The notes under the pieces were generated by a model. It was not told where the DNA came from. It did not search any database and saw nothing but the letters and a program-made list of their open reading frames with translations. This document shows, in pieces, positions 4,793-59,540 of a DNA stretch of 64,000 nucleotides. The stretch lies in contig CP110630.1 in assembly GCA_026210745.1 (NCBI GenBank), positions 2,356,001-2,420,000 of the forward strand. Reading direction: 5' to 3'. The stretch is from Exobasidium rhododendri (Eukaryota > Basidiomycota > Exobasidiomycetes > Exobasidiales > Exobasidiaceae). A program made the translations under genes and the position numbers. Within the stretch, counting starts at the first letter, position 1, and the number at the start of each line of letters is the position of its first letter.

Positions 4793-6541
4793 ATGGGAGC
4801 GTCACAGTCCTCAACCTCGCCAGGTGGTGATGGTGGTGGTGGTGGGAGACCGAGGACGAGCGATGGTATAGATGTGCAAGACTATTACGCACTATTGGAA
4901 CTGTCCGACCCAAACACCTGCACGAGCTCATCCGAAGAGATTCGCAAGGGCTATCGAAAATTGGCACTACGATATCATCCCGACAAGAACCCGGATAATG
5001 TCGAGGAGGCCAATAAGCGATTCCTTCTCATTCAGGCTGCATATGAGATTCTCAGTGATGATCAAGAGAGAGCTTGGTATGATGCTCACAGGGAGCAGAT
5101 ATTGGGTGGAGCAATGGATGATGATGGATTTGGTGACGGCGAAGAGGAAGGACTGGACGAGGAAGCCTTTCAAAGCTTTCGGAGTGGATCTAGAAAACCA
5201 CCACCTGCACCGACGGGCTCTTCTTTACCAGGCTTGACGACACGTCAGCTTATGCGATTTCTTGATGCTACGCTGTGCATTGATGTGAAGCCTCCCTCTG
5301 CAGACGAAGTCGGCTTCTTCGGGACGTTTAGGAGGCTGTTTGAGCGATTGCTAGAGGAAGAGAAGAAAGCCGCACCTTATCCAGGAGAGAAGCCATCGGA
5401 ATGGGAAGAATTGCCTAGCTTTGGCTACTGTCATACCCCATACCTGCATCCAAAGGGAGAGGAGAAACCACTTCATCAAGATCAGGTTCGTGACTTCTAC
5501 ACTGCCTGGGCTTCCTTTGCCTCGAGGAAGGGATTCCAATGGAAAGATGGTCATAGATTGCATGACGCTCCAGACCGCAGAGTGAGAAGAGCGATGGAGA
5601 AGGAGAACAAAAGACTAAGGGATGAGGCAAGGAGGGAATACAACGATGTCATACGGTCTTTGGTCAGCTTCCTTCGAAAGAGAGATCCTCGTGTGAAGGC
5701 CCACCTTGCAACGCAGAGCACCTTGGCAAATTCAAGCGAGGAGATGCAAAGGAGAAAATTGGCCGCAGAAAGGGAGATGAGAGAACAAGAAGAGAGAGCA
5801 AAAGCATTCAGGCAGCAAAGCTGGGATGTATGGAATGATGGACAAGAGGAAGAGAGTGAAGACGACAGCGAGGCATCGTTCGGGGAAGAGGTAGTGGGGA
5901 ATCAAGAGCGTGGAGAGGATGCGGCGGAGGAAGAAGAAGAAGATGATCAATCTGATAATCTTGACGTGCTAGAGTGCTTTGCGTGCGACAAGACGTTTCA
6001 ATCATTGCCTGCATTCGAGAATCACGAGAAAAGCAAAAAACACAAAAAGCAAGTCCAGCAAATCACTCGCCAGATGCAAAGAGAGGACAAGACTCTTCGA
6101 GACTTGAATGGTCAGACGGAAGAAAGCCTTGTCATCGTTGGTATCGAGGAGGAAGAGACTGAAGCGAACGGTGAAGAGAAAGATGAGATGGCAGGGCTGA
6201 GCAAGAAAGCTAAACAGAGGCTCAAAAAGCGTCTCAAAGACCAGGAAAAGTCTGCCGCTAGCACGGCTCCTACGTCGGAGAATGAGCAAGACGGGGTAGA
6301 CGAGAAGCCAGCCGTTGTGGCGGAGATGAACGATGACGGTAGTGAAGGCTTACCATTAGAGCGAGAAGACGCAAACGGAATTGCCAAGTCTAGACGGTCA
6401 AAGAAGGACAAGAAGAGTGGAAAGACAAAGGAGCGCTGCAACGTATGCTCGGCTGGCTTTGATTCGAGGAGCAAGCTGTTCACCCATGTCCGCGAGACCA
6501 ATCACGCCCTTTCCTCCACCACCAATCCTGCAAAGCGATGA
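4793..6541 (+). CDS. JJJ1: J-domain ribosome biogenesis factor Jjj1/DNAJC21
   Basis: Intronless, 582 residues. A J domain covers about residues 29-93 with the HPD motif at 62-64 (RYHPDKN), preceded by a Gly-rich N-terminal leader. A charged helical region follows with the Jjj1 pattern VRDFYTAWASFASRKGFQWK near residue 230. Two C2H2 zinc fingers are visible: CFACDKTF...HEKSKKH near residue 395 and CNVCSAGF...HVRETNH near 549. This order (J domain, acidic/charged middle, two U1-type zinc fingers) is diagnostic of Jjj1/DNAJC21. The protein works with Hsp70 (Ssa) on cytosolic pre-60S particles to release and recycle the export factor Arx1. The acidic stretch near residues 350-390 is typical. Functionally it fits with EFL1 at 47 kb, another cytosolic 60S maturation factor. 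Confidence 0.93.
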   Translation: MGASQSSTSPGGDGGGGGRPRTSDGIDVQDYYALLELSDPNTCTSSSEEIRKGYRKLALRYHPDKNPDNVEEANKRFLLIQAAYEILSDDQERAWYDAHREQILGGAMDDDGFGDGEEEGLDEEAFQSFRSGSRKPPPAPTGSSLPGLTTRQLMRFLDATLCIDVKPPSADEVGFFGTFRRLFERLLEEEKKAAPYPGEKPSEWEELPSFGYCHTPYLHPKGEEKPLHQDQVRDFYTAWASFASRKGFQWKDGHRLHDAPDRRVRRAMEKENKRLRDEARREYNDVIRSLVSFLRKRDPRVKAHLATQSTLANSSEEMQRRKLAAEREMREQEERAKAFRQQSWDVWNDGQEEESEDDSEASFGEEVVGNQERGEDAAEEEEEDDQSDNLDVLECFACDKTFQSLPAFENHEKSKKHKKQVQQITRQMQREDKTLRDLNGQTEESLVIVGIEEEETEANGEEKDEMAGLSKKAKQRLKKRLKDQEKSAASTAPTSENEQDGVDEKPAVVAEMNDDGSEGLPLEREDANGIAKSRRSKKDKKSGKTKERCNVCSAGFDSRSKLFTHVRETNHALSSTTNPAKR

Positions 6542-11006: not shown

Positions 11007-11113
11007 GGTGTCTCTAATGCGACGAACCGCCAGTCCCTCCACCAACGTCCTCCCTGGGTTCTGAATTGTCATTTTGGCGTCTGTCTCAACGTTGCTCTGA
11101 CCCTTGGAAGTGC

Positions 11114-13345
11114 ATGGTCCACTCAGAGGAAGAAGGGTCTTCTCGATCCGATACGACAACGTCGTTTGCTGTCGATGTTGTTCGTCGACTTGGATCGCAG
11201 CTAGACGCTGTCCAAGAAAAGCACGATTGGGCAGTCGGTAAAGACAATGACAGTGTCACTGTGCAAGCGCAGAAAAGGGAATCGTCTTCATCACCCTTGC
11301 CTGACATAGACGTCACCAATTGCACATCTCTGCATTCCACCAAGGAGCTGCAAGCTGCTCTTTCATCTCTTGAGAAGGACAACGTTGTCACTCTGGCAAA
11401 GGTCACATACGCAGCTTACGGAATTGTGCTCGACCAGATACTCAAGGACGCAGAGAGGGTCAACAATCAAGCCTGGTTCTGGACCGAGGTCGAAGAAGAT
11501 GTCTTTCAGACCAGCTTGTATCTGGTGCAAAGTGAGTCCGAGGGAGGAAATGTCAGCCATCCAAACGAAGGAAAGGTGCACCCTCTGATTGACCTCTCTT
11601 TTTTTCTCTCTTTCTCTCCCTCCTCGACTTCTATCGCAGCTTTTCCCGCTCGTGTGCTCAATTTGGGTAGAACTCTGTATCGTTCCTTGAGTCACTCCGC
11701 GACGACATCTGCGCAGCCTCTCAAGCTGGACAGCGACAGCTTCAAGCGAGCTTGGCGACTAGCTCGTGACTCTCCCATCCTTGTCGTTGGAGCGATCTTT
11801 CCATGTACTGTCCGAGGAGGACAACATGAAATCATCACCAACAGCCAACACCCGCAAAGTCTTCTCGTAGTCGGAAGAGCACTGTCTCCTCTCAGCCTGA
11901 CCCGTCATGAAGCTAGATCGAAGAGGAAACACCTGCTGAAGCAGAGAGATGCACTGGCTACCAGACTAGGTTCATTGGCTCAAAGGATGGACAGTATACC
12001 GCAGGAAGCAGAGGAAGGTCGTACAGCGATGCTTCAAGAGCTCCAAACGCGAATCAACGACATGCACCAAGCGTTGAATGCACAGACGACACAGGTATCA
12101 TCAGCGTCAACTGCATCGACTGATCAACTCTCATCTTCTTTGAACAATCTCTTGTCTTACCATATTGGCGCTCAACAAGCTCAGACCGATCTGATGCTGT
12201 CCTCATCGCCAAGAGGGAGTGGTCCACCTTCAGCTGTTGCGAGATTGTGGCCTACGATGGTCCTTGTTCCCGTCACTACCATCATTGTAGTGCGAGTAGT
12301 GACGGCAAGCTGGGACACGATCGTGGAGAAGGCAGTGGAAGCAAGAGAGACGATGATAGGATTCGCAGTCAATTGGGTGTATGAGCCGTGTCTGAAGTTG
12401 CTGGACACCATTCGAACAGGCGACCAAGAAGGTGTCATCATGTCGAAAGAAAGCTTGAATTCCGACTTGCAAAGTCTCGAGAGGATGGTGACGGAATTCA
12501 GTGCTGAAAAGTATGGACTTCGCGGTGCAGAGTTGGACAATGTCACTCAGAAAGTCAGGGAAGGGGACATGACCACCGTGCTGAAGATTTACGAGAGCGA
12601 GCTCAAGGTGCGTAGTAAGATGGGGGGGAGAGAAGAAAATGACATCTGCGACAGGCGACGCTCTCTAGTCTTTCATATGTACTGACATTATTACTACTCT
12701 TCCTTGCCTGGGAATACGCCTAACCAGTCACCGCTTAAGTCGGCCATCACTGGGTCACTCATTCGCTCGCTCCTCATCCAGATTCAAAAAGTGAAGGTAG
12801 ACATTGCCGTAGCCATGCGTGGAGTCGATCAACTCCTCAAATCACAGCAACTGCTTTTCGGAGCTATCGGCATCGCACCTGCTATGGCCATCACATACTT
12901 TGTCGGCGGATTTCTGAAAGAGGAAGTCAGTGTAGCTCTGGGCAGGCAAGGAAAAGAAGTGGGGACAGGTACAAGATTCCGAGCTTGGGAAGCGATGAGG
13001 AGGATCGACAGGCTACTGGCCAATCCGGAACTCACTTCTGGACCTTTGCCTCCGCTCACGCAAGGGCTACTCCTTCTTGATCTGTCTCTACTGCGCAGTC
13101 TTTCGCCCCTTCTCTTATCGCAAGCTTCTAAGGGCAGGAAGGGGACGGCAAAGCGACTGCGAGTGGAATTCTTGCAAGATGTTCGAGACCTGGAGTCATC
13201 GGGCATCTCAAAGCAAGGCATCACTTCTGGTGCTTCAACACCATCTACGATCAATCAGGTAGGCCTGGGCTGGCACGCTCGACGTGCGGCAGTAGATCGA
13301 ATGTGGCGAAGTTGGGGAAGTGTTATGAACCTGGTGGATACTTGA
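11114..13345 (+). CDS. NCA2: NCA2-like mitochondrial membrane protein
   Basis: Best read as three exons. Exon 1 begins at the first ATG (11114) and ends at 11531. A 108-nt intron (11532-11639, GTGAGT, long T/C tract, CGCAG) is in frame and could be mistaken for coding sequence; removing it gives LVQTFPARVLNLG, as in the family. Exon 2 is 11640-12607, then a second intron (GTGCGT...CCAG), then exon 3 12728-13345. The protein is about 667 residues. The conserved C-terminal half has a membrane segment near MVLVPVTTIIVVRVV, then SLERMVTEF...LRGAELDNV, KSAITGSLIRSLLIQIQKVK, and a second hydrophobic segment IGIAPAMAITYFVGGF. In yeast Nca2 affects expression of the mitochondrial ATP6/ATP8 mRNA. Its biochemistry is not settled. 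Confidence 0.85.
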
Positions 13346-25033: not shown

Positions 25034-26683
25034 TCATAAGCTTGTCTGATCCTGCTGTTTGGCGTCCACTTTGTCTTCGTCCCAATTATCCCAAGCGTCT
25101 TCCTCTTCGTCGATGGCTGCATTTGCGATGCCCACCTGCATCGCATCTCGTTTCGTCTCTTCATCCGACTTCTTTTGCAATTGCAGAGGTGGCGATACTA
25201 CCGTTGTGGCTCTCGTTGCTGCCTCATCCTTTGCTACGATCTCGCCTATCCGCTCCTTACTCATGCCCCTTTCATGCGTCGTCCCTTTCTTCAATCTGTC
25301 CAACTGACTGAGAGAGGAAGAAGTAGAATGAGGTGGTGGATAGGAATGGTTGTCGTCAACATCGTCTTCTTCCTCCTCTTCCTCTTCACTGGCGTCACCA
25401 ACCAGATGACTTCGAATCTCTTCCTCGTGTCTGTTCTCCCTGCCACGATTCCACCAGGGACTTCGACCCTGACCTGTTTCGACATCACTAGCTGTGGTGA
25501 CATCGCTCGGTCTTGAATCACGAAAATTGCCTCCATCAGGCCCTCCAGAGCCGTTCGCAGCTGCCTCTGCTTCCTCTTCATTTCTGTACTTTGACGTCAC
25601 TGGATTATGCCGGAGAAGCGAGTCGATGAGCCAGAACTGATTATGATAAATTTTGACAAGATGTGAGTAACAGTCACAATCAAAAAAAGTACAAATATGA
25701 AGTATCCGATGGTGCACACTCACCTGTAATGTGTTCATGGCTAATGGAAACGCAGCCATGACAAAGAAGACTTGCGCTTTTTGGTGTTCCCCGAAGAGAT
25801 CCAACACCCAGCCTCCGACGTCATAGAGGAAGGGGAAGATGCCAAAGAAGATGACGACCATGACTTTCATTAGGAAGAGGGAGAGGAGATAAAGAGATAA
25901 TTGTCTGGCGAAGAAGGTCAATCTTGGCCTCTGCGTCTTTTTGGTGCTGCTGACAACGGCAGGTGCTGAGGTGGTCCTTTGTATGTTTGTTGCGGTGTGT
26001 GTATCAGAGAGGACATGGTGAATGTTTTGATGATCTTGTTCTACTGTCGGCGAGAATGATTCAGAAGTAGGACTCATTTGTTCATCGTACGTGGCTTCAA
26101 TGCTTCTCCCTCGCCTCCTTCGACCTAGCACAGTAGGTGTACTTGTATATTGACCAGATACAAAGCCAGGCCATCCGAGAACATCGGTAAAGTAGTGTGT
26201 TAGATAACGCATGCTGAAGTAGATGAAGAGCACGCCTACTGTCGTGTCGATTGCAATGTTGAGAAAGTACAGGCTGCAGGGGTTATTTTCACCTTCGCTA
26301 GCTATGCTTCCTATGTAGGAAAGTGAGACGTTCAGTATGTGCACAAAGAGCTGGCCGAGCATCTGCTTTGAGATGTCCAATGTCCTGGAAAGGCCAGCAT
26401 ACGTAGAATACTGGTCAGCTCTCCGCTACGCAAATCAGAACCCTTCTATCCGCTTGCTGTATTACACTCACCAGATCTTCCATGGTCTCTTTGGCTTCTC
26501 TCTTTGCCTTTTGAGTACCAAAGTGCCCAAGACCACGAAGCCCATGATCGCTTGAACAAAGAGAGCAAAAGGTCCCAGTAGCCGACAGTTACGATTCGCC
26601 GAATCAGGATCATCTGGTATGCTGGGAAAGGGGTAGCCAGGCGAGGTAGGCTCCCCAATCATGCTGGTGATGCTTGACGACAT
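25034..26683 (-). CDS. STIMATE/YPL162C-family membrane protein
   Basis: Three exons: 26683-26472, 26384-25724 and 25636-25034, about 491 residues. The second intron (87 nt) is in frame; removing it joins NTLQ to FWLIDSLLRHNP, as in the family. The N-terminal half has about four to five membrane helices: LLGPFALFVQAIMGFVVLGT, LFVHILNVSLSYIGS, LYFLNIAIDTTVGVLFIYFS and, after a loop, LSLYLLSLFLMKVMVVIFFG and VFFVMAAFPLAMNTLQFW. The conserved DTTVGV and LIDSLLRH regions identify the STIMATE (TMEM110) family. In animals it adjusts ER-plasma membrane contacts and calcium entry; in yeast the homolog is vacuolar and of unknown role. The C-terminal 190 residues are charged and disordered, with an acidic run. 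It is divergent from FRA10AC1 and convergent with POLI (140 bp apart). Confidence 0.85.
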
Positions 26684-46997: not shown

Positions 46998-49900
46998 ATG
47001 GCTGCTCTGCGAAAGCCACAATTCTCGTCTGCATCGGCCAATGTACGATGTGCGACTTTGATGGGCCATGTCGATCATGGAAAGTCGTCTTATGCCGACT
47101 CGCTTCTTGCTGCCAATTCCATCATCTCGGCTCGTCAAGCTGGTAAGCTGCGATATTTGGACTCGAGAGAAGATGAGCAAGAGAGAGGTATAACGATGGA
47201 AAGCAGTGCAGTGAGCTTGTCGTATAGAGTGAGGCAGATGCAAAGTGATGGCAGCCCTGGAGAGATTCAGGACTTCATGATCAATCTTATTGATACGCCT
47301 GGTCACGTCGATTTCTCCAGCGAAGTCTCTACCGCAAGCAGACTTTGCGACGGTACGCTCATCATCATCGATGTTGTGGAAGGGGTCTGCACTCAGACCA
47401 TCACCGTTCTGCGACAAGCATGGGACGAGCGTCTTTCACCAATCTTAGTGCTGAACAAGATGGATAGACTCGTCACTGACTTGAAGCTGTCACCCAACGA
47501 AGCATTTCACCACCTCACTCAGTTGATCGAACAAGTCAACGCTGTCATGGGATCCTTCTTCTCCATTGAAAGGATGGAAGACGATCAAAGGTGGCACGAA
47601 GAGAGAGAAAAGAGGATGCAAAAGAAGAAAGCGGCACAGGATGATGAGATAGTCAAAGATCTCAGCAATGTAAACGGGCACGAAGAAGCGAACGAGGGAG
47701 CGCAAGGACTGGCAGAGGAAGAAAAGTACCAGGAGCTGGACGATGAAGACATTTACTTTGACCCTGGCAGAGGCAATGTCATCTTTGCTTCTGCCATTGA
47801 CAATTGGGCTTTTCGACTAGACCGATTCTCCCACCTTTACTCCAAGAAGCTCGGCATTCAAGAAAGGAAGTTCCGAAAGGTTCTTTGGGGTGACTTTTAC
47901 TTTGATCCAAAGGCAAAGCGAATCATCGGACAGAAGCAGAAGGAAAAGGACGGACGTGTACTCAAGCCAGTGTTTGTCCAATTTGTACTGGAAAACATCT
48001 GGTCAGTCTATGAGAGTGCTGCGAATCGAGATCAAGAAAAGCTAGAGAAGATTGTGAAGACATTGGATCTCAAGGTACATCCACGAGATCTCAAGTCGAA
48101 AGACACTGCCACCCTGGTCCAGTCCATCTTCTCTCAATGGCTGCCCCTCGCATCTTGTACCTTCTCCGCCCTCGTCTCCAACACGCCGCCTCCTTCCAAA
48201 GCACAGACGGTGAGAATTCCGAAGATGCTTCACCCCGACTTGAATTACTTTGGCAAGGCAGAGCCGAGAACGGCTTTGGAGAGAGACTTGTTTGATGCAA
48301 GGATTGGTCCGGGAACAAGACGTTGCGCATACGTCAGCAAAATGTTTGCCATCCGAAGAGGTGACTTACCTGAAGCGAAGAGAAAGGAGTTGTCTGCCGA
48401 GGAGATGCGACAACGGGGCAAGGAAGCAAGAGAAAGGGCTCAAGCTGTTCAGGCAGCATTGAAAGCGACTGGGGCTAGTGTTGATGAAGGCTCGCATGAA
48501 GTACCTGTCGAGAAGGAAGTTCAAGTGAGGCGCTTGCCCGACGAACTAAGCGACGAAGAGAAAGCACAGGAAGTCGTCTTGGGCTTCTCCAGGCTGTACA
48601 GTGGAACACTCAAAGTGGGCCAAAGTATTGCAGCGCTCTTGCCAAAGTACAATACAGCTCTTCCACCTGCGCATACGTCGAACGTGAATCACTTTCGAAT
48701 TGTCACCTTGGACGGTCTGTACATGATGATGGGACGAGATTTGATTGCGGTTACAGAGGTACCCGCTGGAAACATCTTTGCGATTCGTGGCTTGGAAGGG
48801 ATTGTGATCAGAAATGCAACACTCTGCGGATTGGAGGAAGGTGTGAGCGATCAACAAGACGATTACGTCAACCTAGCTGGAATCAACAAGATGTCCTCCC
48901 CAATCGTACGTGTGGCACTGGAGCCGAAGAATCCTTCTCACATGCCAAAGCTAGTCGAGGGACTACGATTGCTTAATCAGGCAGATCCTTGCGTAGAGAC
49001 CATGGTCCAAAGCACAGGGGAGCACGTAATCATCTGTGCAGGCGAAATCCATCTAGAGCGATGTCTGAAGGACTTGAGAGAAAGGTTTGCCAAGTGTGCC
49101 ATCCAGGCATCTCAACCATTGGTGCCGTTTCGAGAGACGGCTATTCGAGGAGTGGAGATGGCGCCACCAAAGTCAGAAGGTCTGCCTCGAGGTACAGTAG
49201 AGTCTCTCGCATCTAATGGCGCAGTGAAATACAAGATTCGAGCTGTTCCGCTGCCTTCTTCTATTTCTGAGTTCTTGCTCATCAACGCAAGGACAATCAG
49301 ACGGCTTTTGCAGCGAGATCGACAGAACGACTCGACGGCAGCAGCTGACGAAGAGGAGGATGCTCAAGCGCAAGGCAACGGACAGTCTCGTGAAGTGAGG
49401 ATGGACGTGTTTTGGGAAAAGCTGGGAGAGGTGATGAACAAGAATGGCTCCCAGTGGAAGAATGTGGTCGATCAGATTTGGACGTTAGGACCGAAGAAAG
49501 TGGGACCAAATCTACTTATCGATGCCCGCGGTGCGAGGGCAACTCATTCTCTTCGAAAGCGAACAGAAGCAATGATTCATCGACATCGAGATGCTTCGCT
49601 TCCCGTTGTTGATCTTGCTGAAAAAGTTGATCTGCTCAGCGTCGGAGGGAAAGACGAAAATGGCCACGACCGGGATAGAGGCATGACAGAAGTAGAAGAA
49701 GCAATCGACACTGGATTCCAGCTGGCGACACTTCAAGGTCCAATGTGTGCTGAACCGATGCAAGGAATGGCTTTCTTCGTCGACAATGTCGAGATGGTCG
49801 CGAGCGAGAAGGCAGAAGGAGGGGCCAATGCTGCTCATTTGAACCTTTCCCAGTTAACGAGCTCTTTGATCGCCTCCGTTCGAGAGTCTTGCAGAAACGG

Positions 49901-50589
49901 ATTGCTGGACTGGTCACCCAGGTTGATGCTGGCCATGTATTCCTGTGATATACAAGCTTCCACCGATGTATTGGGAAAGGTTCATGCGGTCTTGTCGCGA
50001 AGAAAGGGTCGAATAACATCGGAAGAGATGAAAGAAGGAACTTCTTTCTTTACAGTGGGATCGCTCCTTCCTGTGATTGAGTCGTTTGGGTTTTCAGATG
50101 GTGAGCTCTCATTGTGCACTTCGATCTACTTTTATTGATTGGTTCCCCGTACCTCTTGCTCCTCCACAGAAATCCGAAAGAAGACGTCAGGGGCAGCTAG
50201 TCCGCAACTAGTTTTCAAAGGGTGAGCACAACTTCCTTGGAAAGAAGGATGTAGAAAGAAGAGTAAAACGAGCTAAAGGTACTTTCTCCCCACTCCTCTT
50301 CCTTCAATATGCCAGCTTTGAGGTATTCGACATTGACCCCTTCTGGGTGCCCAGAACAGAGGAAGAATTGGAAGACTTGGGAGAGCACGGGGAACGTGAA
50401 AACGTAGCGAAACGTTACATGGACAAAGTCCGAAAGCGAAAGGTGAATTCTTCCCTATACCCAAAAAAAAGAGACTTTAGAGACAAATGCTCACCATCGC
50501 CCTACACCTTTCCTCGCTAATTTCAGGGCCTCTTTGTCTCCAAAAGGATCGTCGAGGGAGAGAAGCAGCGAACATTGAAGTCGAATTAA
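46998..50589 (+). CDS. EFL1: Elongation factor-like GTPase EFL1/Ria1
   Basis: Four exons: 46998-50100, 50170-50221, 50316-50442 and 50527-50589, 1114 residues. The G domain has GHVDHGKS at residues 23-30, RGITMESSAVSL, DTPGHVDFSSEV and VLNKMDRL. An EFL1-specific acidic insertion (roughly residues 195-250) interrupts the G domain. Domains II-V follow as in EF-2. The diphthamide region of EF-2 is not expected here. The last three small exons give FSDEIRKKTSGAASPQLVFK, GFEVFDIDPFWVPRTEEELE and GLFVSKRIVEGEKQRTLK, the usual end. EFL1 works with Sdo1/SBDS to remove Tif6/eIF6 from cytosolic pre-60S subunits, close in time to the Jjj1 step encoded at 4.8 kb. Confidence 0.95.
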
Positions 50590-51938: not shown

Positions 51939-52796
51939 ATGGCTGTAGACGACAAGCGCGACTCTAGTAGAGAAATAACGCCTACCAATTCTAATATCAA
52001 CCTGCCTGCGGATCTACCACTACAACAACAAAAGAATACACTGGATATCAACAGGAAGCAGGACAAACTTAAATATCCTTTCCTTTCCGAGCCACACTCC
52101 CCCACTTCTACCTACCCTACCATCACTGCAGCATTCCCGACATCATCGACTTCATCAACACTGAGACCGACAACACCTCCCAAGTCAACGATAAGAACGA
52201 AGAAACCTAGCAATCTCGTTTTGATCAAGACCTTTGCACGACGAACTTCTAGTCTTAGTTCGACAGAAGCAACGTCTCCTCACACACCACCGCCTGATCA
52301 ACCGCTACCGCCCTTGCCTTCTCTTTACGAACAGCAAAACAAAGACACTGCAACTGAACGCAGGATGGATATGGACGACAAGCTCGAGGAAGCTCTGAAT
52401 GCAGCATCGCTAGAACAGCCAATCTTCCCTCCTTCAGGGGAGTCAAAAGCGACGAACAGAAATTATACGTGAGTAGCAACGACGTTGTCCTAAGCTTCCG
52501 GCTTTTCCTCCTTGTTTCGCGGGCGGTGCGATTTGCTTTTGATTGTCTCGATGGGCGTGGACAGTGTCTCCCTGCATGCATATTACGTGAAGGGTCTGAC
52601 CCTCCTTTCGAGAAAAGAAAGGCCGAGGGATATTGTGCAGAGGATGAGGTAAACGGACAGGTCTTCATGTTCGCTTCTCTTTCCTCGTCGAGATGTCATG
52701 CAGCGGGCTGTTCTTAGCAAAAGGTACAAACAAATCCCGGTGCATGATATACTGGTAGGGACCGCCCTTTGCTTGAATACTATACTTCGTCGCTAG
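51939..52796 (+). CDS. Uncertain gene or 5' exons, with a Ser/Pro-rich N-terminus
   Basis: Exons proposed: 51939-52468, 52565-52648 and 52718-52796, giving 230 residues if the last exon reads to the TAG at 52794. Residues 1-177 are disordered, rich in Ser, Thr and Pro (HTPPPDQPLPPLPSLYEQQ). The later exons encode an ordered stretch, SLHAYYVKGLTLLSRKERPR then DIVQRMSKRYKQIPVHDIL, that resembles the start of an RGS-type helical domain. Splicing there is supported by GTGAGT...GACAG and GTAAAC...TTAG and by the open frame. It may be an independent short gene, or the real 5' part of the RGS-LOV gene that starts again at 52945. I could not find a canonical acceptor that would join the two. Treat this model as tentative. 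Confidence 0.4.
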
Positions 52797-52944
52797 CTTC
52801 CCTTACTAGCGCGGAAGATCCCAATCTCTGAAACAAAATCACTCTAGATCGTTCCTCTCACGGATGAGCGCGGCTGACACTACTTTTCCTATCCTTTTTT
52901 TTTTTACTTTTTATATTTTCATTTCTCTTCCTTCCTAATCGCGA

Positions 52945-55583
52945 ATGCCGGTACTTCACGACTATGAATCATTCTTATACGCGCATTTCAAATCCTCTGG
53001 CGAATCTGTCGGTGCCGCGTCGACGGTGGGTATTGGAACATTTAAAGTGCCACGAAAGGTGGTGATACAAGGAAAGTGGAAGGACAAGACCAGCAACAAC
53101 CGCTTCATTCGCCTTACTTGCAATCGAATGTTGTGGATCGGCAGCTGAGCAATGGGAACGGGGTCGTGAGAGGCGACTTGAACGATGCAGGAAGTGTAGG
53201 GCGACGTGGCCCGGCTAGTTCCACGACGGCTTCTAAATCGACGGACACCTTTGGAACGTTTGGAAATCGACCTCGGATCGCTAAAGGCCAAGTGGAGTCC
53301 GTGCTGCCGTCCATTCCCAACGGATACTCTTCGCAAGGACCTGCTAGAAAGGGCGTCAGATCAGATAGCGAGAGTGCAGGGAAGTCTGACGATGAATTCT
53401 CCGACGAGTACCCATACTCTGATTCTGACTTGGAAACAGAAAGAGCACCTCATGGTTTGACAAAGTCGTTTGATTCAAGGGACACAAACACTAGCGCTTT
53501 GTCAAGGCATGGTAGTCGCGGTGGTGATAGCCACACGAAGGAGTCTATGCGGTCTCCAGCGAAGACGGACTTCCCGAGACCTCCTCCGCGAGATGATGCC
53601 TTGGCGAGCGTCGTTGAATCAAAGCATAGCATGGGCGGCCTAGGTGCGGACTCGACAATGCTGCAGAGGGGAAGGGGTGGGGTAGTATCTGTGAACAATA
53701 CGTACGGCGTAGTAAAGAAGGACATGGATGATGCTGCGTCAGATGCAGGCTCCGGAAAGAGCGTATACCGCACAGCAGGCTTACGATCTGACTTGGCAAC
53801 GTGGGCCCCTTCCGCTAAACCACCCATGGAACAATGGAGCGGCATTTCTAACTTACCAGACTGGTCTACTTTGCGAGGAAATGAACCGACATCCATGCCA
53901 ATCGTTCACGTTCAGCGCGATCTAGATTGGTCCATGCGACGATTGCTCAATGAAACCGTGTTTGAGCAGCTCGTCAATGATCCACTCGGCAGACATCGAT
54001 TCCGGGAACATCTAGCACACAAGACTGGAACAGAGCACAAGCTGGACATGTACTTTGATCTCTGTCAATACACCAAACAGAACGAAGCAATCCGAAAATC
54101 AAGTGAAGCTCTGCACGACATCTATCTGGCGCAAGATAGCGACGGACATGTACCGCTGCCTGCCGAGATGAGTGAAGACTTCTACGAGACGATCAAAAGG
54201 CAATATGAAGTTCGAGCGTCTTTGGGTTCGATTCAGCAGCATTTGCTAAAGTCGCTCTACAAGACGGAGTTCCAGACGTTTGTGAAAGCGCAACTGATTG
54301 AACACAACAAGGTGAAACTTGGCAGTTTCGCAGATGAAGATGTCACCCGATCAGGACTGGGAGATTGCTTTTGTCTGACGAATCCGAGACTACGAGAGAA
54401 TCCGATTGTCCTCGTATCACCTGGCTTTGAGAAAGTGACGGGTTATCCGAGACAACAAATCATCGGAAGAAATTGCAGATTCTTGCAAGGACCGGGCACA
54501 GCACCGGACAGTGTGCAACGTATTCGAGATTCCCTGAACGCTGGCGAGTCGTCTACCGAATTGATCCTCAACTATACTCGGGATGGCACACCGTTCTTCT
54601 GTTTGTTGAACATAATTCCACTTCGAGACGCTACAGGAACATTGGTGTACTTTATCGGTGGTCAGACAAACGTGAACGGTCAATTGGCAAGCTCCAAGGG
54701 ACTCAAGTTCTTGATAGGAGGAGGAGCGACCGATCCAGGAGAAGGGATGATCACGCAAGGAAGCATCGTCAATGGTGTGGAGGTGTCGCCCACGGTAGCT
54801 CGCTACTTTCAGGGACTGAACAGTAATTCTGGTAATGCTGACGGTTCCTCCATCAGTCCAAGCGGATCAGACAAGTATACGGGAGACTCGAGGGATGTCC
54901 ACAGTCGAAGGGGTCAAGCGGCCGGCTCTTATGATCCTTCCAGCAGAAGAGGACCGGCCAATACATTCGACGCTTCATCGCCCGTACAGGACTTGATGTT
55001 TGATAGGCCTGTCAAGAAAGGCAATGCAGTAAGCAGATTGTTCGGTCGATCGGCCGTCAGCAAGGCGAAGGGTGGATCGAACAGCCTCGGACAGTCGTTG
55101 GAATCGCCTTCGCAACGATTGGCAGGCGCAGAGGGTACGATGAGAAAGGACCACCATACTCTGGCCGATCAAATGGACTACTTCACCAGCCTCTACAGCA
55201 AAGCAATCATTTTTAAGCGCACAAAGAGAGAGATCATCTTTGCCACAAAAGAGTGCATTGCTTACTTTGACCTGCCAATCGATGCTTGGAAGGACATCTA
55301 CAATTCTCCCTTGATTCACGCCGATTTGCTTAGTATCATCGAAGGCTCCGACAAAGAAGAGACGAAAGCCGTTCAGACTTCCATACAACAAGCTGTAAGG
55401 AACGGTGAGAGTATCAGCGTCCATACGGGCATCCGAAGGCCAAAGCAAAAGAGGAGATTCTTGACAGCATCAGCAAACGATTGGATCGCGGGCATGGACG
55501 GACCGAAGTTCACCACCATCCACATTACCCCGTTGCGAGATCGCGACAATTCCAGTTTTGCCTTTGTCGCCATCATTGCTTGA
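52945..55583 (+). CDS. RGS-LOV blue-light photoreceptor
   Basis: Model: exon 1 52945-53025, a 68-nt intron (GTGGGT...CCAG), exon 2 53094-55583, 857 residues. Without the intron the main frame has no usable upstream ATG. After a long disordered N-terminus comes an RGS domain (DLDWSMRRLLNETVFEQLVN, then GRHRFREHLAHKTG, HDIYLAQDS). A LOV domain follows, beginning GLGDCFCLTNPRLRENPIVL, with the flavin-adduct motif GRNCRFLQGPGT (Cys488 in this model), and the flavin-contacting N and Q residues in NYTRDGTPFFCLLNIIPL and FIGGQTNV. A second PAS-like segment lies near the C-terminus (KRTKREIIFATKECIAYFDL to FTTIHITPLRDRD), without the Cys. Fungal RGS-LOV proteins are known; they bind flavin and move to the membrane in blue light. 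RGS domains speed GTP hydrolysis by G-alpha. The exact 5' end is uncertain. Confidence 0.88.
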
Positions 55584-55726: not shown

Positions 55727-55793
<67 letters not shown>

Positions 55794-56308
55794 TGTGTTG
55801 ATTCTGGTGGGTGCTGCGAAGATTGCGTAAATCTTCGGGGGAAGCGCGGCTGCTCGTCGGCTGACATCTCAAGGGAGTACCAGAGGCGCTCTAGACAATT
55901 GTCCTATTGCATCAGAACGCCGAATGCCCTCCCGAGATTCTTCCCCCCTTTCCTTTGATTTCCTCGAGCAGTGGGTCTCCCTAGCATGTTGTCACTCTAC
56001 CTGTGCATTGCCTGGTTCTCTTCTGCGACCGCATTCAAGACACACCCAGACCGACACTGCCACGGGCGGGCGGCGTGGCTCTCTCGTCGTGTTCCCCGTA
56101 AAGTGGCCTCAGCCTTCCTCTCTAACCGTCCATACTCTTATAAATGGGCGAGCTCGTCTGCGCCCTATCTTGCTCATCACCCTTTTTCTTTTCTTTCTTC
56201 ATCTCTGCGGGGGACTCAATTGCGCTGGACGCTAAGATCAAGACACCCTCTCGTAGATTGTTTCCTTCTCGGGTATTCTCTCTAAAGTGGCCAGATCTCC
56301 CAGAGGTT
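55584..56308. other. Gap with TG repeat and promoter of the small secreted protein gene
   Basis: A 725-bp gap. Apart from the TG repeat it holds CT-rich sequence upstream of 56309, including a C/T tract at 56160-56210, typical of fungal promoters. No gene was recognised. Confidence 0.4.
55728..55799. repeat. (TG)n microsatellite downstream of the RGS-LOV gene
   Basis: About 72 bp of almost perfect TG dinucleotide repeat with one TA interruption at the end. It lies about 145 bp after the stop of the RGS-LOV gene, probably in or just beyond its 3' UTR. Length is likely to vary between strains. Confidence 0.95.
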
Positions 56309-57014: not shown

Positions 57015-57627
57015 GCCATGTACTCTAAAGCTTCTTTCTCTATCATCCTCCCTTCCACCTCTGTGCACCACCGTCTCACATCCTGAGATTACTATCATTA
57101 GGTCCCCCTTGCACTCTCAGAGACAGAAAGGATGAAGAGCAATTGTGGGAAGGTATATTGGGTATTCGTACGAGGGAAAGGTCTGCTGATACTTTACATC
57201 ATTTGCTTGACTGCTCGAGCAGCGCCCGCTAGTCGGCCTTGCTGGAGGTGCAGTACCGCATCGTAAGGGTAGTGCCTTCCTCTGACGGCTCAATTGCACA
57301 CGCGACAGGTGCATCACCTTCTTCGTATGCTGCTCGTGGGATGCTGTCCAGACCATCGGATTTTAATATCGCCACGACACAGGCCTGGCTTCAAACGAAG
57401 TGATCCTCGCAGGAGGCAGTCGATGCTCTGCAGGTGTAGCTGTGCTGGCCACGGACTGTCGCCTTCGGTGATCTTCGGCCAGATAAGCGACGTGCGGGGA
57501 CACAGAATCTAAGTTTCCCTTTAAATCGATGGCACATGAAAGTTTAAACACCCTGATCACACGACTTGCTGAGCTTTTCTGGTGTTCCCTTTCTCGTTGG
57601 ACAGGACTCTCTCTCCCAGATCATATC
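57015..57627. other. Upstream region of the MFS transporter gene
   Basis: A 613-bp gap. It may contain a 5' exon of the MFS gene: an in-frame ATG at 57529 would add 33 residues, and a possible acceptor (GGACAG) lies near 57605. No separate gene was recognised. Confidence 0.35.
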
Positions 57628-59540
57628 ATGACACTGTCTGATCAGGAGAATGACATTGCTATGGTTGAGATGGAACTGCAACAGCGAGTAGCAGGCTCGT
57701 CAAAGCTGCTGCGTCGACCCTCTTCCTCCCTGCAGAAGCCCGACTCGTCGCGCTTCCCAACAGGCCAAGGAGCAGCAGTAGAAGAGGAAGAGGAAGAAGA
57801 GGAGGAGGATCCCTTCCAGGAAATCACAGTCGCCAGCAGTAAGGGAAGAGCAAACAGTACCGTTCATCGGAACAAGATCATCGACAACAGCAGCGATCAG
57901 AACAGCAGTAGAAGGGTGTCAAACGACCCATTTGCTTCAAATCATGCTGAGCCAAGCACTCGAAATGTACAAAGTCGACCGACCGAGATCCCAAATTTGC
58001 TAGCCGAGATCATGTTCATTCTCGTCTGCTCCACTGGCCAGCTGCTCTTCGGCTTCTTGACGGGAAACGTAGCAGGCTTGCAGCTCATTCTCGTCGACTT
58101 GCTCGACATTCCGTCTTCGCAGACACCATGGCTGCTGGGTTCCTTTCTTCTGGCCAACGGTCTCAGCGTCATTGTGTCAGGTCCCGTGGCCGACCTCTAC
58201 CGACCGAAATACCTCATCTGTGGCGCCTTTGCCTGGCAAACAATGTGGAATATCATCGGGGTCTTTTCTCTACATAACAAGTATCTCTTCTTCATCACTC
58301 GTGGTGGTCAAGGTCTCAGTGTGGGCATACTTGTGTCGTCAAGTATAAGCTTGCTAGGGAGAATCTATCAGCCGGGCCTGAGAAAGACTAGGGTATTCTC
58401 CATCATGGCATCCATGGCTCCGCTAGGGTACTGGCTTGGAAATCTACAAGGCGGTGCTCTGTATCACTCGCCAAAGTGGATCTTCGCTTCTTCTTCCATC
58501 ATATCGGGCATCTGCTTTGCAGGTGGAATGTATGCAATCCCCAACATCCTGCCAGCTTTGCAAAGTCCCGGCTTTCGAAGCTTTGACTTTGCTGGTTCCA
58601 CGTTAGCAGTCACTGGTTGCGCTCTCCTTGTCGCTGGTCTGACTCAGGGTCCTTCTGTTAATTGGGCGCCCTACTCGATTGTGATTGTCGTCCTTGGTCT
58701 TGTATCGTTGACAGCTTTCTTCTTTGTCGAGAGGAGGGTCCAGCGACCGTTGCTGCCTCCTTCCTTGTGGCGAGTACCGGGCTTCACCCCTCTGATCATC
58801 TCCTATTTGTGAGTCTACTTCTGTGCGTCCATTAGCGTGCTGATGCACTGCGACTGAATCATCGGATTGACGTCTCCCGGCGCAGCATCGGATTCGGATC
58901 TTTTATGGCATGGCAGTTCTTTGCTCTTCAGTTTTGGCTGAAAGTGCAACACGTCTCCCCTCTCACCGTCGCTCTATACCTCACTCCCAATGCAATCTTT
59001 GGTGTACTGGCGACGTTCATCGTCAGTCGGATTGCCCATCTAGTAGCAGGACATTGGATACTGGCGGCTAGCATGATCGCCTTTGCCCTAGGACCGGTCT
59101 TCTTCCTCCCTCAGTCGGCCAATACCATCTACTGGGCGCTGTCTTTTGCCGGTATCAGCCTTGTCACGTTTGGTCCGGTGAGTGAAGACTCTAAAAAGAA
59201 TAGAGGTGACGATCTTAGATGCTGACAATGCACTTGCTCTACCTTTATTCCTCCTTTTCAGGACCTGTCTTTTGCTGCCGCCTCCATCTTTGTCACTTCG
59301 AGCGTCGCCAAGTCGTATCAAGGCTCGGCAGGCAGCTTGTTAGTCACTGTCCAGAACCTCTCGGGAGCCATCATGATCAGTATCTCTGAATCCATCGGCG
59401 ACAAAGCTGCAAAAGGAAGCGACTTGGAGCGTCTACACTCTATCTGGTGGTTTAATTTCGCCGCTTCCATATGTGCTGCCGTCATCACTCTAGTCTTCGT
59501 CAGAATGCCCAAGACGGAGGAAAAGGAACATGAGTCGTAA
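57628..59540 (+). CDS. MFS drug:H+ antiporter-type transporter
   Basis: Three exons: 57628-58808, 58886-59177 and 59262-59540, 583 residues from the chosen ATG. An in-frame ATG at 57529 is possible, but MTLSDQENDIAMVEME reads as a more natural disordered start. The N-terminus contains a run of ten Glu. Transmembrane helices begin at IMFILVCSTGQLLFGFLTGN and continue through PWLLGSFLLANGLSVIVSGP and VADLYRPKYLICGAFAWQTM. Fourteen helices are plausible, as in the DHA2 group. The junctions give SYFIGFGSFMAWQFFALQFW and TFGP-DLSFAAASIFVTSSV. Relatives (Amf1/Atr1-like) export toxic compounds or carry ammonium or borate; the substrate here is unknown. It is convergent with the LYR-motif gene, with only 31 bp between the stops. 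Confidence 0.88.

Follow-up and report, generated by a model that had tools for sequence, protein, structure and literature searches.

An RGS-LOV-PAS protein of the basidiomycete Exobasidium rhododendri with a conserved LOV cysteine and replaced canonical G-alpha-contact residues

We analyzed a 64,000-nucleotide stretch of contig CP110630.1 of Exobasidium rhododendri (hereafter the window) and found in it a gene for an RGS-LOV-PAS protein, about 1,021 residues long, in which the photoactive cysteine of the LOV domain is in place and five G-alpha-contact residues of the RGS domain are all replaced. Judged by its sequence, the protein is a member of the fungal RGS-LOV (BcLOV4-type) family, running from a disordered N-terminus through RGS, LOV and a basic linker to PAS. 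An earlier, sequence-only reading of this DNA was right about the family and the domains (RGS, LOV and a Cys-less PAS); its further claim of a direct blue-light input to G-protein signalling is unsupported for this protein, as four of the five replaced contacts (the exception being L159) also lie at positions poorly conserved among basidiomycete relatives. We think it reasonably likely that the protein is a BcLOV4-class receptor, photoactive and recruited to the membrane, with an RGS domain that acts as a cap or scaffold and not as a GTPase-activating protein (GAP).

The gene lies on the + strand and probably has two exons, 51939-52468 and 53048-55583:

51939-52468, + strand: probable exon 1, an open frame of 176 codons plus 2 nt coding for a disordered Ser/Pro-rich N-terminus, with the donor GTGAGT at 52469
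52284-52322, + strand: Pro-rich motif TPPPDQPLPPLPS, which Ceraceosorus (P0005) and Rickenella (P0018) have in similar form
52469-53047, + strand: probable intron (GTGAGT...AAAG), with an alternative 3' end at 53071; both acceptors keep the frame
53048-55583, + strand: exon 2, coding for the RGS-LOV-PAS body and including the stop codon
53361-53441, + strand: acidic patch SDSESAGKSDDEFSDEYPYSDSDLETE (residues 282-308), net charge -9 in 25 residues, a value reached by 10 of 1000 shuffles

The RGS-LOV frame is open from 53046 (53046-55583), and an upstream exon is likely because no ATG precedes 53547 in this frame and long N-termini occur in several relatives (e.g., total lengths of 1,004 and 1,117 residues). 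Joining exon 1 at 53048 gives 1,021 residues, and joining it at 53072 gives 1,013. The Pro-rich stretch of exon 1 aligned locally with the Ceraceosorus N-terminus at a score of 87, with 0 of 300 shuffles as good; among the 11 relatives compared with exon 1, three gave at most 4 of 300 shuffles as good and eight gave at least 82 of 300, and inspection by eye of three frames at the locus of a paralogue (described below) revealed no clear upstream-exon match. The reality of exon 1 is supported, not proven, by Ceraceosorus and two weaker matches. The start codon previously placed at 52945 was rejected, being out of frame with RGS-LOV: in that other register it opens a 67-residue frame whose end at 53148 comes well ahead of the part coding for RGS. 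This small frame-1 ORF (52945-53148, beginning MPVLHDYESFLYAHFK) lies within the probable intron and runs over the start of exon 2.

The N-terminus had been described as long, acidic and possibly specific to this lineage. Over the 478 residues N-terminal of the RGS domain, 60 basic residues stand against 58 acidic ones (net +2, neutral overall), on which count global acidity was rejected, and what stands of the description is the one local patch at residues 282-308. An acidic patch reaches p<0.05 in 23 of the 38 other scorable rows of our 42-row alignment A2, comprising 21 of 32 basidiomycete-side and 2 of 6 ascomycete rows; three rows were too short to score, and the row of the window protein (P0001) is without that part.

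In a single + strand reading frame, the domain search returned the RGS domain first (Pfam PF00615, E 2.9e-7, 31.3 bits against a cut-off of 23.9) and then the LOV domain (PAS_9, PF13426, E 6.4e-19), as had been anticipated, and a phmmer comparison with solved LOV domains gave a best E of 5.4e-28. The features of the LOV domain are as follows:

54354-54680, + strand: LOV domain
54474-54476, + strand: photoactive Cys, residue 653 of the gene model, in GRNCRFLQ, aligned with phot2 C426
54600-54602, + strand: Cys (Cys695) at the flavin-contact Asn position (AsLOV2 N492)

The complete GRNCRFLQ flavin motif is present, as originally reported, with the Cys codon at 54474; the residue, formerly numbered 488, is residue 653 in the two-exon model. 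It lies inside the pocket of a LOV/PAS fold, in that residues 213-318 of the predicted model align gap-free with phototropin-2 LOV2 388-493 (106 aligned) and C251, in that model's numbering, sits on the photoactive C426; the Cys outside the LOV pocket that the earlier reading had named as a refutation is thus not seen. The Cys is invariant across the 42 rows of alignment A2. In a larger count, whose rows were chosen by the NC[RKH] motif so that the presence of the Cys is built in, Q513 is found in 103/103 basidiomycete-side rows and N482 in 100/103 (two gaps, and one Arg in a broken row). "Basidiomycete-side" denotes all rows except eight ascomycete rows, P0111 and L004 (another RGS gene of the same genome), and takes in environmental proteins, two entries for the paralogue (PARA and P0007), Wallemia rows that are nearly identical to one another and some fragmentary rows. 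The 103-row count omits P0060, P0070 and P0082 (which mismatch the pattern, yet all read GRNCR), the window protein P0001, P0106-P0110 and P0112, and the relatives were drawn from the best 120 of 218 and the best 120 of 1663 matches. A scan of viral contigs with the deep-branching P0121 found no relative.

Two sets of rows are of interest in their own right. The Sporobolomyces proteins P0030 and P0031 are, as annotated, tandem RGS-LOV-PAS-RGS-LOV-PAS models of 1,179 and 1,031 residues, the last unit of P0031 looking truncated by eye. P0021, named from the fern Adiantum nelumboides, has an RGS-LOV part nearly identical to that of the environmental basidiomycete-side P0016, and from this resemblance is probably a fungal contamination of the fern assembly.

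The LOV fold and adduct Cys are shared with phototropin and aureochrome, the outputs of which differ, as does the N492 position, which is Asn in 219/219 sampled non-RGS LOV domains (read by regex, with all 219 parsed) and Cys in 59 of the 103 basidiomycete-side rows (for the tree rows, read from the alignment column). Since AsLOV2 N492A is reported to still photocycle (54 s vs 80 s; PMC3903614), this change need not block photochemistry. We consider it very likely that the LOV domain is photoactive, which would involve flavin binding and a photocycle.

The RGS domain and the residues at its canonical G-alpha face are placed as follows:

53952-54311, + strand: RGS (RH) domain (PF00615, E 2.9e-7), helical in the predicted model
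54039-54041, + strand: Lys at the RGS4 N88 position
54153-54155, + strand: Pro at the RGS4 N128 position
54252-54254, + strand: Ser at the RGS4 L159 position
54264-54266, + strand: Thr at the RGS4 D163 position
54276-54278, + strand: Thr at the RGS4 R167 position

The Pfam match and the helical model (ten-residue mean pLDDT 73-93, with the last block at 51) agree on an RGS fold, and the G-alpha-contact residues are missing from it: the five residues that we take as the RGS4 contacts (N88, N128, L159, D163 and R167) read K, P, S, T and T in the window protein. This mapping was the same in two MAFFT alignments and a profile-profile fit (E 2.1e-16), matches the hydrophobic register of the helix, and is consistent with the weak phmmer fit of the RGS part alone to RGS9 in the PDB (E 0.014, with viral NS1 at E 0.62); a full-length fold search was filled by LOV, with the RGS part outside its match list. 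In RGS4 itself, mutating E87, N88, I114 and N128 is reported to cut GAP activity by >90% (PMC3434218).

The RGS domain scores a modest 31.3 bits in the window protein and 24.1 in its paralogue, vs 61-94 in Botrytis, Sclerotinia, P0111 and P0121, and the fragments P0126 and P0124 score 33.7 and 29.7. N88 is Asn in 0/103 basidiomycete-side rows (three gapped) vs 7/8 ascomycete rows, and N128 is Asn in 5/103 (two gapped) vs 6/8; D163 is kept in 24/103 (one gapped) vs 7/8, and R167 in 47/103 vs 8/8. With the loss graded in this way at D163 and R167, some relatives could keep the G-alpha contact. The tree, a second alignment and the entropy comparison used 58 hand-picked rows, 44 of them basidiomycete-side, in which N88, N128, D163 and R167 rank 88, 113, 93 and 92 of 120 columns (1 being the most conserved), i.e., among the third of the basidiomycete RGS columns that is less conserved. 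In a small set of 12 other rows, mostly ascomycete and without P0111 and P0122, the same four columns rank 15, 27, 12 and 1 of 119, nine of these rows reaching N88. Two positions break the pattern, namely L159 (rank 44/120, with Ser in 27/44 basidiomycete-side rows, vs 49/119) and S164 (rank 43 vs 82, mostly Glu or Gln on the basidiomycete side). The branch leading to the basidiomycete-side rows is long, at 1.54 changes per column, with support of 100/100.

The loss is not unique to this branch, as P0111, outside the basidiomycetes, is also without N88 and N128. P0123, inspected by eye, likewise misses some RGS residues. Five rows (P0002, P0003, P0004, P0016 and P0021) carry an "EN" displaced one residue ahead of the N88 column, where the window protein reads EHK, and a shifted alignment could read these rows as N88. 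The L004 gene of this genome, by contrast, retains the residues, reading EENL, LNIE and TDSVPRF. The RGS domain of the window protein has been maintained, and to judge from these residues canonical G-alpha contact is apparently not the reason; we think it likely that GAP activity is absent.

That light instead brings a working RGS domain to the membrane and so shuts off G-alpha would fit with the RGS match above the Pfam cut-off, the several G-alpha loci in the genome and the ascomycete RGS-LOV rows, which mostly retain the G-alpha residues. It would also fit with Magnaporthe Rgs5, which is described as interacting with the G-alpha MagB, its authors also allowing a G-protein-independent role (PMC3248559), and with axin, in which the N128 position is altered and a cryptic G-alpha contact may be retained (PMC3434218). 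However, none of N88, N128, L159, D163 and R167 survives in the window protein, and basidiomycete relatives conserve four of these five columns poorly, for which reason we regard a light-gated GAP as unlikely. GRKs have RGS-homology domains with altered GAP residues, and GRK2 binds G-alpha-q through another RGS face. By a comparable arrangement, the window protein might bind and sequester G-alpha at the membrane in light through a face other than the canonical one, without GAP activity. The retained fold and newly fixed positions, such as Asp514 of the gene model (Asp in 44/44 basidiomycete-side rows and Lys in 8/9 other rows), speak for such binding, but the conserved Asp may be structural and both partner and interface are hypothetical, and we give this reading little credence as well.

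The 17.6-Mb, four-contig genome contains four RGS matches, comprising two RGS-LOV genes, L004, which is FlbA-like in our own reading, and L006, in which hydrophobic stretches are visible by eye and which we take to be Rax1-like. The second RGS-LOV-PAS gene (L002, at 4907688-4909952 of contig 3) encodes a protein that shares 50% identity with the window copy and matches Exobasidium rhododendri P0007 exactly. Its partner on the tree is an environmental row from within the window protein's own clade (the forks being partly open), and from this placement the duplication looks recent on the window's side. One of two copies losing its function, through decay or blindness, could account for a degenerated RGS face; against this, the reading frame is unbroken, the LOV domain has its Cys, N482 and Q513, neither copy departs from the complete order of domains, and the change in the RGS domain is general among basidiomycete-side rows and not private to the window copy, all of which makes decay very improbable. 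Other light-related genes in the genome include a WC-1-like LOV protein (the name being our own reading), a phytochrome match, two opsin loci and several photolyase/cryptochrome matches.

The window also contains the following, among which the EFL1-like, zuotin-like, NCA2-like and MFS genes have no obvious link to light:

4793-6541, + strand: zuotin-like DnaJ protein
11066-12685, + strand: NCA2-like protein
25034-26380, - strand: STIMATE-family protein (PF12400, E 3e-27)
46998-50138, + strand: EFL1-like GTPase
55728-55798: (TG)35 dinucleotide repeat, about 145 bases past the stop codon of the RGS-LOV-PAS gene
57529-58812, + strand: MFS transporter

Three elements follow the LOV domain in the RGS-LOV-PAS protein:

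54777-54809, + strand: conserved VEVSPTVARYF element, partly predicted helix (ten-residue mean pLDDT 77-84)
55014-55070, + strand: basic-hydrophobic segment KKGNAVSRLFGRSAVSKAK (residues 833-851), a candidate lipid-binding amphipathic helix
55119-55580, + strand: C-terminal PAS domain (core 55194-55580)

The C-terminal segment has a predicted PAS fold and no LOV Cys motif, in agreement with its earlier description as PAS-like and Cys-less. It gave no Pfam match above the cut-off, and a phmmer search of the C-terminus alone against the PDB gave no match; in the deep-branching P0121, P0111 and P0124, the homologous C-terminal domain matches PAS_3. The suggestion that this PAS is specific to the lineage was rejected, as the domain is also seen in ascomycete (Botrytis-type) rows, in deep-branching environmental rows and, by eye, in the chytrid Cladochytrium. 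Because ascomycete and deep-branching relatives carry it, the PAS domain corresponds to what has been called the BcLOV4 "C-terminal domain of unidentified function," to which the sequence comparison and predicted model give a fold.

The "SP" of the VEVSPTVARYF element is found by eye in 24 of 26 basidiomycete-side tails, and the element was not seen in the six ascomycete tails compared. For BcLOV4, lipid binding is attributed to a polybasic amphipathic linker that joins LOV to the C-terminal domain, and in the dark this linker is apparently restrained by the RGS domain (both as described in PMC8993538). The basic segment of the window protein occupies the same place. Scanning alignment-bounded linkers (in place of an earlier scan with ill-bounded ones), we found that the 14-mer of the LOV-PAS linker scoring highest as basic and amphipathic begins 16-36 residues ahead of the PAS domain in 38 of 42 rows, spanning basidiomycetes, ascomycetes and P0111, a position that is partly forced by short linkers (57-90 residues in 13 rows). 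The segment beats its own shuffled linkers at p<0.05 in only 8 of 42 rows, the row of the window protein giving p 0.047. In the AlphaFold2 full-length model the segment is disordered, with no helix and a pLDDT of about 39, which could fit a helix induced by the membrane and is no proof of one.

We compared the window protein with BcLOV4 through cluster P0150, whose representative is from Botryotinia convoluta (32 members) and in which membership of B. cinerea is presumed. The two share the order RGS, LOV, basic linker and C-terminal domain in one chain, the LOV Cys and a homologous C-terminus (BLASTP E 9e-37 over RGS-LOV and 4e-4 over the C-terminus). They differ in the N-terminus (about 478 residues vs about 115) and the linker (about 150 residues vs 62-77 in six ascomycete rows), and the window protein is without the G-alpha-contact residues and has Cys at the N492 position. 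Among other ascomycete RGS-LOV proteins, Magnaporthe oryzae Rgs5 and Fusarium LovB have, by their descriptions, an RGS domain followed by a PAS/LOV unit (PMC3248559, PMC10056346); Rgs5 differs in its interaction with G-alpha, and its deletion is described as giving no visible phenotype. Axin is described as having an RGS fold with altered G-alpha-contact residues, used as a scaffold or binder (PMC3434218). Unlike in axin and the GRKs, the RGS domain of the window protein is joined to a blue-light sensor in one chain.

The receptor that we favor, photoactive and with the RGS domain as cap or scaffold, would work by a mechanism carried over from BcLOV4 by homology. Blue light would form a flavin-cysteinyl adduct in the LOV domain, the adduct would weaken the contacts of the RGS domain and linker, and the released basic-hydrophobic segment would dock the protein on anionic plasma-membrane lipids, from which it would depart again in the dark; recruitment of this kind seems to us moderately likely. 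The acidic N-terminal patch could pair with the basic linker segment in the dark, which is a guess. The RGS fold would be kept to cap the linker in the dark state and/or to scaffold a partner, no longer as a G-alpha GAP. A brake on lipid binding, such as the RGS domain is reported to exert, apparently, in BcLOV4, needs no GAP residues, which would explain why the fold has been retained.

The class is known. Three points look new: most of the G-alpha face has been lost across the basidiomycete branch, Cys is frequent at N492, and the C-terminal domain is assigned to PAS. The titles and abstract openings listed, which did not extend to the primary BcLOV4 papers, offered no treatment of basidiomycete RGS-LOV residues or of a PAS assignment for the BcLOV4 C-terminus, and are a weak guide in this respect. 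Tentatively, basidiomycete RGS-LOV-PAS proteins may constitute a photoreceptor subclass of their own, the RGS domain having been freed early in the phylum from the regulation of G-alpha and put to new use as a dark-state cap and as a docking surface for another partner, with many members having also acquired a photocycle-tuning Cys at the flavin contact. If so, blue light would act through membrane recruitment of a scaffold and not through G-protein shut-off. The name RGS-LOV invites a reading of "light to G protein"; if the basidiomycete branch is without a working G-alpha face, that reading breaks down for much of the family, and recruitment to the membrane by light becomes the more likely conserved function. 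The natural LOV variants with Cys at the N492 position could, in addition, enlarge the optogenetic tool set.
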